64,000 bases of DNA from Clostridiales bacterium (GTDB lineage Bacteria > Bacillota > Clostridia > Peptostreptococcales > Anaerovoracaceae). Of this stretch, positions 8,726 through 64,000 are shown piece after piece. Under the pieces are notes generated by a model. The model was not told where the DNA came from. It was given only the letters and a program-made list of their open reading frames with translations, and did no database searches. Each line of letters starts with the position of its first letter. Within the stretch, counting starts at the first letter, position 1. Both the position numbers and the translations under genes were made by a program. The DNA is taken from the NCBI GenBank assembly GCA_012841165.1, contig DUVF01000050.1:1-64000 (forward strand), given 5' to 3'.

Positions 8726-9676
8726 TCAATCGAATAGCCGGCTGATCGAATCGTTGGTAAAAATACGGATCATCGCTTCGGCAAACAAGGGCGCAACAGA
8801 CAGGACTTTTATCTTGGGCAATTTCTTCTCTTCCGGCAGTTGAATGGTGTTAAGCAATACCATTTCCTTGATCTCTGATTCGCGGATCCGTTCGATTGCC
8901 GGCCCCGATAGAACCGCATGGGTAGCGCAGGCATACACTTCTTTCGCGCCGAGATCTTTCAGCGCGCCTGCGGCATTCATCATGGTTCCGGCAGTGTCTA
9001 TGATATCGTCGACCAGAATAGCTGTTTTCCCTTCAATGTCACCGATTATGTTCATTATTTCTGAAACGTTCGCCTTGGGTCGCCGCTTATCGACGATAGC
9101 GATCGGCGAATCGAGGGGATAGGCCATGTTGCGGGCGCGGGTGACACTGCCGTGATCAGGCGAGACGATGACCAGATCTTCCAAGTGTAATTCCTTAAAA
9201 TATTTAACCAGTATTGGTATGCCAAGCAAGTGATCGACTGGGATATCGAAATAGCCCTGTATCTGAGCTGCGTGCAGATCCATTGTGACAACCCGGTCGG
9301 CTCCGGCTGCGCTGATCAAATCCGCGACCAGTTTAGCGGTAATCGGATCACGAGCCTTGGTTTTACGATCTTGCCGGGCATATCCATAATACGGTATGAC
9401 CGCATTGATTCGGCCGGCAGAGGCTCGTTTCATAGCATCCATCATTATCAGCATTTCCATCAGGGTTTCGTTAACCGGATTACAGGTCGACTGGATTATG
9501 TAGGTATCCATCCCCCGAACTGTTTCCCAAAGATTGACAGATATTTCACCGTCACTGAATCTGCTGACTGTCGCTTTGCCCAGAGGTTTACCCATGATGG
9601 CTGCGATCTCCTCCGCCAGCTCCAGGTTTGAATTGCCGGAGAATATTTTAAAATCAGCGAACCCGCTATTTCTCAT
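8726..9676 (-). CDS. prs: ribose-phosphate pyrophosphokinase (PRPP synthetase)
   Basis: A 316-residue class I PRPP synthetase that makes phosphoribosyl pyrophosphate from ribose 5-phosphate and ATP for nucleotide, histidine and tryptophan synthesis. Landmarks are the N-terminal [14 protein letters not shown], the [10 protein letters not shown] loop that binds ATP, the divalent-metal segment [11 protein letters not shown], and the PRPP-binding loop [11 protein letters not shown]. Length and motifs are normal. It lies between the glmU half-gene and pth, as in Bacillus subtilis, except that no ctc gene is present. Confidence 0.97.
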
Positions 9677-9708: not shown

Positions 9709-10434
9709 TTACTTATCTTTTTTAAGAAGACCGCGACGTTCTACCCAGCCTTCCTTTATCTTATTCTCTGTCCGCCCTATGCACAAGGCTCCGGCCGGAA
9801 TATCTTCCGTTATGGTCGCGCCAGCTGCCACATAGGCTTTTTCACCTACGTTGACCGGTGCGATCAGGTTAGTGTTGCAGCCTATAAAAGCTCCATCGGC
9901 GATGGTTGATCGATTTTTGTCCGTGCCATTGTAATTGACAAAAACTACGCCACAGCCCAGATTCACACCGTCACCGATATCGGCGTCGCCCACATAGGTA
10001 AGATGCGACACCTTTGATTCATTGCCGATTCGTGAATTCTTCACCTCAACGAAATCGCCCACTTTGGCGCCTTCACCTATGTCGCTATGCGGCCTCAGGT
10101 AGGCAAAAGGGCCGACATGCGCATTCCGTCCCACCTTGCTTTCCAAAATGACCGAGCATTGTATATCTACCTGATCGCCAATGATGCTATCTTTGATCTT
10201 GCTGTTGAAACCGATCACGCAATACTCACCGATGACGGTCTGCCCGGCCAGCATTACGCCAGGCTCTATCAGACTGCCTTTTCCAATTTTTACCTGTTTG
10301 TCAATATATACTGTTTTCCAATCAGTAAAAAGGACTCCGGCTGCCATGTGCTTCATGACAATCCCGAGTCTCTCTTCTTCTGCTTTAGCCGCAGACTGCA
10401 GCAACGCTTCGCGTTCATTTGTCCGCTCGCTCAT
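9709..10434 (-). CDS. glmU: GlmU-type glucosamine-1-phosphate N-acetyltransferase, lacking the uridylyltransferase domain
   Basis: Full-length GlmU is about 450-460 residues. This protein is 241 and matches only the linker helix and the C-terminal left-handed beta-helix, which acetylates glucosamine 1-phosphate. Acetyltransferase residues known from GlmU appear in order: R in YLRP, K in VEVKNS, H and Y in SHLTYVGDA, N in VNYNG and K in DKNRS, then the terminal KEGW. The N-terminal nucleotidyltransferase domain (LAAGxGTRM) is absent, and the 166 bases upstream hold no remnant. The start is supported by GAGGAAAG and by a promoter upstream. The position between spoVG and prs is exactly that of full-length glmU in Bacillus, so this looks like a real domain loss or split. 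UDP-GlcNAc synthesis would need a separate uridylyltransferase. Confidence 0.88.
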   Translation of the reverse strand: MSERTNEREALLQSAAKAEEERLGIVMKHMAAGVLFTDWKTVYIDKQVKIGKGSLIEPGVMLAGQTVIGEYCVIGFNSKIKDSIIGDQVDIQCSVILESKVGRNAHVGPFAYLRPHSDIGEGAKVGDFVEVKNSRIGNESKVSHLTYVGDADIGDGVNLGCGVVFVNYNGTDKNRSTIADGAFIGCNTNLIAPVNVGEKAYVAAGATITEDIPAGALCIGRTENKIKEGWVERRGLLKKDK

Positions 10435-10600: not shown

Positions 10601-10939
10601 TCATGCGCCTATAGTTTCAGCTGCTTCACCATTTGCTATACTCGCCTCGTCCGCTCTGTTTTCAGGTTCTGCTTCCCCTTTCCATTCCAGTGCTTTGTCG
10701 TAGGCTTCAAAAATTGCATCCTTGATCCGGTTTCGTGTCTCGGAAGTCAGCGGATGCGCAATATCGCGAAAATCGCCTTCTCCCATCTTCCGGCTGGGCA
10801 TAGCGATGAAAAAACCATTCTGCCCCTCGATCACTTTGATATCATGAACTACAAACTCGTCGTCAAAAGTGACCGATGCGACTGCTTTCATCTTTCCTTC
10901 ATCGTTTACCTTTCGAATCCGTACATCCGTTATACGCAT
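10601..10939 (-). CDS. spoVG: regulatory protein SpoVG
   Basis: SpoVG is a small nucleic-acid-binding regulator of division septation and other processes in Firmicutes. The first 85 residues match the family: [49 protein letters not shown]. The last 25 or so residues are low-complexity and acidic. I chose the ATG at 10939 because the sequence then begins exactly where the family does, and GGGTGGTG lies six bases upstream. GTG codons at 10951 and 10948 are poorer starts. Its presence does not by itself show that the organism forms spores. Confidence 0.93.
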
Positions 10940-11105
10940 TCGAATCACCACCCTTCGCAGGCCAAGCTTTTCGTAGTTCCAGATAACTTCATTATAACAG
11001 CCCAGAGGTTTCTGGCAAGCAAAAAAGAGAAAATTTTCCGTCGTTTCTGAATATTTTGTTTTTTTATTGGCTGGTCACAAAAGTTCTCCACGAGCCGGCC
11101 CTGTG

Positions 11106-63864: not shown

Positions 63865-64000
63865 TTGAAACAACCGATTTTAGTCATTATGGCTGCAGGT
63901 ATCGGCAGCCGTTTCGGCGGACTGAAGCAATTAGCTCCGGTTGGCTTAAACGGAGAGCCAATTTTGATGTTCTCTCTCTACGATGCCATTTCAGCCGGTT
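63865..64000 (+). CDS. sugar-phosphate nucleotidyltransferase family protein, 5' part (3' end outside window)
   Basis: The frame opens at TTG 63865 behind AAAGGAAA and runs off the end of the window. The first 45 residues have ILVIMAAGIGSRFGGLKQLAPVG, the nucleotide-binding signature of NTP-transferase-fold sugar nucleotidylyltransferases (GalU/GlmU-like fold). The sugar and nucleotide cannot be told from this fragment. It is worth comparing with the GlmU uridylyltransferase domain that is missing from the spoVG-prs locus. Confidence 0.75.
   Translation, partial: MKQPILVIMAAGIGSRFGGLKQLAPVGLNGEPILMFSLYDAISAG

Follow-up and report, generated by a model that had tools for sequence, protein, structure and literature searches.

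GlmU, a cell-wall precursor enzyme that is complete in most bacteria, is usually regarded as conserved, essential and bifunctional, and it is a drug target. Its uridylyltransferase step can be replaced by a stand-alone protein, UAP/AGX1 (PF01704). A further uridylyltransferase, this one of the PF00483 family, is paired in Pseudomonas with an anomeric kinase of the phosphotransferase fold: this AmgK/MurU system recycles peptidoglycan, and MurU acts on MurNAc-1-phosphate and supplements GlmU but does not replace it. The window analysed here, a stretch of 64,000 nucleotides from a Clostridiales genome, encodes a protein that has the C-terminal left-handed beta-helix acetyltransferase domain and the catalytic residues in common with the bifunctional GlmU of Escherichia coli but lacks the entire N-terminal uridylyltransferase domain. 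At its far end begins the gene for a nucleotidyltransferase, NT, which is our candidate for the missing step. Like UAP/AGX1, NT would be a stand-alone replacement, although it belongs to a different sequence family; with MurU it has in common the PF00483 family and, in some relatives, the pairing with a kinase.

The truncated glmU gene (positions 9709 to 10434, minus strand) lies between a SpoVG-like gene upstream (10601 to 10951, minus strand) and prs, encoding ribose-phosphate pyrophosphokinase, downstream (8726 to 9676, minus strand), as an earlier sequence-only reading had described. We take this to be the operon position of full-length glmU in Bacillus, and the order spoVG-glmU-prs is conserved among relatives with truncated as well as with full GlmU. 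The open reading frame encodes 241 amino acids and starts with ATG; GAGGA, which precedes it at a distance of about 8 bp, is a plausible ribosome-binding site. Alignment to E. coli GlmU and to full-length GlmU of the same family assigns residues 1 to 27 (10354 to 10434, minus strand) to what remains of the linker helix, and residues 28 to 233 (9736 to 10353, minus strand) form the left-handed beta-helix acetyltransferase domain, as judged from the solved C-domains 4aa7 and 3twd and the Hexapep family PF00132. The TIGR01173 profile covers only its positions 228 to 449 of 452 here and scores 269.6 bits, below the curated cut-off of 366.85; thus, linker helix and left-handed helix domain are indeed all that is encoded. 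In the alignment to GlmU of E. coli K-12, R333, E349, K351, H363, Y366, N377, N386, Y387, K392, A423 and R440 are kept, among them all residues by which we recognise the C-domain of a bifunctional GlmU (H363, K351, Y366, N386, K392 and R440). The claim of intact acetyltransferase residues holds with the single exception of S405, which is a cysteine here and likewise in the other truncated members of the family. The signature of the N-domain (GxGTR...K and D105) is absent, as the match to the model begins at 228. No remnant of the nucleotidyltransferase had been seen upstream, and none is detectable within the window: the N-domain of a full-length GlmU of the same family, used as query against the whole window, gave a best E value of 1.6. 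Judging from its intact residues, the 241-amino-acid product is a putative monofunctional glucosamine-1-phosphate N-acetyltransferase.

The truncation is a property of a clade. We sampled 247 genomes of the order, 67 of which belong to the window's family (f1, probably Anaerovoracaceae). Within this family, the GlmU match has the size of the acetyltransferase half in 51 genomes, is small or missing in 14 and is of full length in two. A protein search showed that 13 of the 14 genomes with a low match lack the acetyltransferase as well (G034, G105, G139, G157, G169, G178, G190, G200, G206, G208, G210, G218 and G233; loci L223 and L225 to L235), and that in the fourteenth, G237, the gene is cut by a contig end. 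In most of the acetyltransferase-less loci that were read there is no replacement gene between spoVG/murC and prs, and murC or spoVG directly precedes prs. Nine other genera of the family have a full-length GlmU in this position (G175, G231 and seven read directly in a second sample). In a tree of six truncated genes and these nine full-length genes, the truncated ones form one clade (support 100/100) outside the full-length ones, and since they do so, the N-domain was likely lost once, in the ancestor of most of the family. The earlier reading had asked whether related Clostridia share the split: most of the window's family does, and there it goes back to one clade; the other families of the order mostly have full-length GlmU. 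Beyond the family, loss or reduction of GlmU extends to other Clostridia: GlmU exceeds the family cut-off in 207 of the 391 genomes of a class-wide sample, and many of the others have one domain or none. In genus g127, which belongs to family f17 (G251, G343 and G411 are examples), NT is present and GlmU matches in several pieces at about 1e-90; it is possibly a full-length protein with an internal insertion.

The gene that the sequence-only reading had pointed out at position 63865 turned out to be the best candidate for the missing uridylyltransferase. Its first 45 codons (63865 to 64000, plus strand) lie in the window; the complete gene extends to contig position 64782, encodes 305 amino acids and is followed by nagB (64894 to 65619). 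NT scores 31.5 bits with PF00483, above the gathering score of 21.2, and over its full length it matches 3PNN (3.7e-76), a PF00483 protein of Porphyromonas gingivalis that is called a 'glycosyltransferase' and has no assigned function. The motifs GxGxR...K, GTxHA and NADDYYG are kept, with the invariant residues G12, G14, R16, K21, D122 and D123. When a close relative, L212, was modelled (pLDDT 90.6), the closest fold was again that of 3PNN, the same family, followed by RmlA and GalU. The modelled fold leaves the substrate unfixed. In two genomes (G051:C8:23483-24553 and G196:C38:9936-11024), NT appears as two matches in one open frame of about 420 amino acids, which points either to a longer frame or to a large insertion in the central part of the enzyme. 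In the open-access literature we found no report of this GlmU split or of the function of NT, and no paper on 3PNN.

The distribution of NT in the window's family points to the same step. NT is present in 64 of its 67 sampled genomes and absent from the two with full-length GlmU (G175 and G231) and from G229, a 94% complete assembly of 250 contigs in which GlmU is truncated and NT was not detected. Thus, NT occurs in 64 of 65 genomes without full GlmU but in none of the seven scorable genomes that have it (G175, G231, G627, G632, G638, G648 and G653, with G641 and G652 left out as not scorable). Among the latter, the GlmU N-domain is the sole PF00483 match in G627, G648 and G653, and none of those in G632 and G638 is NT-like. 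Conversely, five genomes with truncated GlmU that are 94 to 99% complete (G072, G120, G142, G145 and G216) yielded NT and no other PF00483 protein. Because GlmU was probably lost only once, these co-occurrences are not independent events; their force is that NT has been kept after the loss and is absent where GlmU is whole. The 13 genomes that have NT but no acetyltransferase indicate that the two are not strictly coupled. In the class sample, NT is present in 130 of 391 Clostridia, and by hand count it coexists with full-length GlmU in 38 of 198 Clostridia outside the window's family. A class-wide association of NT with missing GlmU is statistically present in a hand-transcribed table; since shared ancestry and genus g127 confound it, we do not rely on it and take the class-wide counts as indicative.

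A second, probable way to dispense with the N-domain is seen in the sister family f2. In four of its genomes the N-region of GlmU is shortened and has lost G16, R18, D105 and other residues (L091, L094, L095 and L098), and throughout the order sample PF01704 exceeds the cut-off only in these four and in G044 (L217 to L221), a genome with PF01704 and no GlmU match at all; all five belong to f2. The one f2 PF01704 protein that was checked is a eukaryote-type UAP, a UDP-GlcNAc pyrophosphorylase (2.5e-90). The f2 N-domain, whose decay goes along with a replacement enzyme, is an intermediate of decay. For the window's family UAP was considered too and rejected, since no UAP-type PF01704 protein was found in it; NT is therefore left as the candidate. 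Three of these f2 genomes have NT as well, so its presence alone is no proof of its role.

The neighbours of NT provide a hint to its substrate. The 80 NT loci that we read come from genomes with names, in the main metagenome-assembled genomes of Lachnospiraceae and Oscillospiraceae. In 27 of them the next gene downstream, in the same orientation, encodes N-acetylhexosamine 1-kinase (NahK), and GalE is encoded nearby in 23. One of these kinases is similar to the NahK structure 4WH1 over its full length (2.7e-94), and the others were called by similarity to that one. The same pair of NT and kinase, with a 4-bp overlap, is found on a Bacteroidota plasmid, where the kinase is 39% identical to the NahK relative. 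The pairing suggests formation of a UDP-N-acetylhexosamine and fits a uridylyltransferase acting on GlcNAc-1-phosphate or GalNAc-1-phosphate; the window's own locus has nagB instead, and NahK is absent from its 15 kb (L020) and from the surroundings of NT in the acetyltransferase-less genomes of the family. We found no conserved NT operon inside the family: the neighbours vary, and nagB or a ROK kinase is adjacent in three of 30 small loci.

Three other explanations have to be weighed. The truncated gene might be a paralogue or an assembly artefact, with a full glmU hidden in the 6% that the assembly lacks (it comprises 1.30 Mb in 74 contigs and is 94% complete). We regard this as very improbable: a search with the TIGR01173 profile found no full-length GlmU in this genome, so that the finding that would have turned the gene into a paralogue did not materialise; about 50 further genomes from many genera, some of them near-complete, carry the same truncation, at the same conserved locus where it was read; and in genera that have full-length GlmU it occupies this very locus. 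An assembly deletion of the N-terminal half, the other reservation of the earlier reading, is excluded because most relatives share the truncation. The genome encodes GlmM, and murC lies within the window; the peptidoglycan pathway therefore needs UDP-GlcNAc, and the view that another protein completes this nucleotide sugar is supported by the family-wide truncation and the lack of a full glmU. Alternatively, the truncation is real but the uridylyltransferase is another protein, either a MobA-like one (PF12804) or a GlgC/GlgD pyrophosphorylase of relaxed specificity. The genome does hold such proteins. Its PF00483 proteins are NT and the products of two neighbouring genes on contig 65, which we call GlgC/GlgD-type because of how they are arranged and how they score. 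Outside the PF00483 genes, PF12804 exceeds the cut-off in IspD, identified from its sequence, and in two further proteins. These two, however, match the molybdenum-cofactor-type families DVU_1551 and MocA and are fused to a histidine-phosphatase and a ModE domain, respectively, and several relatives whose GlmU is truncated and whose only PF00483 match is NT yielded no GlgC/GlgD, so that we rejected it as a general replacement. Taken together, this explanation seems unlikely to us. As for the two PF12804 proteins themselves, the DVU_1551-type nucleotidyltransferase (L017:7071-8312, G000:C17) is MobA-like and has radical-SAM, methyltransferase and AMP-ligase-like genes as neighbours, and the MocA-like cytidylyltransferase (L018:6446-7372, G000:C7), with its ModE-type DNA-binding domain, is encoded upstream of an XdhC-like gene.

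Slightly less probable still is the idea that NT mainly makes UDP-glucose or a nucleotide sugar of salvage, with UDP-GlcNAc arising incidentally or by another route. In its favour are the lack of any GalU match in the window's genome and the structural neighbours of NT, RmlA and GalU, and GalE, encoded near relatives of NT, acts on UDP-glucose too. A role in UDP-glucose formation would not, however, predict the absence of NT from the scorable genomes of the family that keep a full GlmU, and the adjacency of NahK points to N-acetylhexosamines.

Our preferred reading, which we hold with good though not full confidence, is that UDP-GlcNAc synthesis is split over the 241-amino-acid acetyltransferase and NT, and that the GlmU N-domain was lost after NT had taken over its step. 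GlmM would make glucosamine-1-phosphate, the GlmU remnant, presumably a trimer of left-handed beta-helices, would acetylate it to GlcNAc-1-phosphate, and NT would couple the latter to UTP. Since its relatives adjoin an N-acetylhexosamine 1-kinase, NT was probably an amino-sugar salvage enzyme originally, which may then have assumed the essential uridylyltransferase step; the N-domain would have disappeared thereafter, most likely once, in the ancestor of most of the family. The truncation, the intact residues, the single clade of the six truncated genes, the co-occurrence and the fold and motif of NT are direct observations; the substrate of NT we infer from its co-occurrence and neighbours, and the order of events is likewise an inference. 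The stand-alone GlcNAc-1-phosphate uridylyltransferase whose existence had been anticipated thus has a candidate. With somewhat less assurance, we favour the broader view that 3PNN-type nucleotidyltransferases are widespread uridylyltransferases for GlcNAc-1-phosphate, perhaps GalNAc-1-phosphate, which stem from amino-sugar salvage and have displaced the N-terminal half of GlmU in most of one family of Clostridia.

For an enzyme with the standing of GlmU, a clade that lacks the uridylyltransferase half is of general relevance, and the step now has a testable candidate in a gene family to which no function had been assigned. The decayed N-domains of the sister family, next to a eukaryote-type enzyme, offer a natural comparison for the course of such a domain displacement. 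If the proposed split is true, calls of gaps in this pathway would be corrected, a family found in many gut Clostridia and Bacteroidota would receive a name, and these bacteria would be predicted to be insensitive to inhibitors of the uridylyltransferase site of GlmU.
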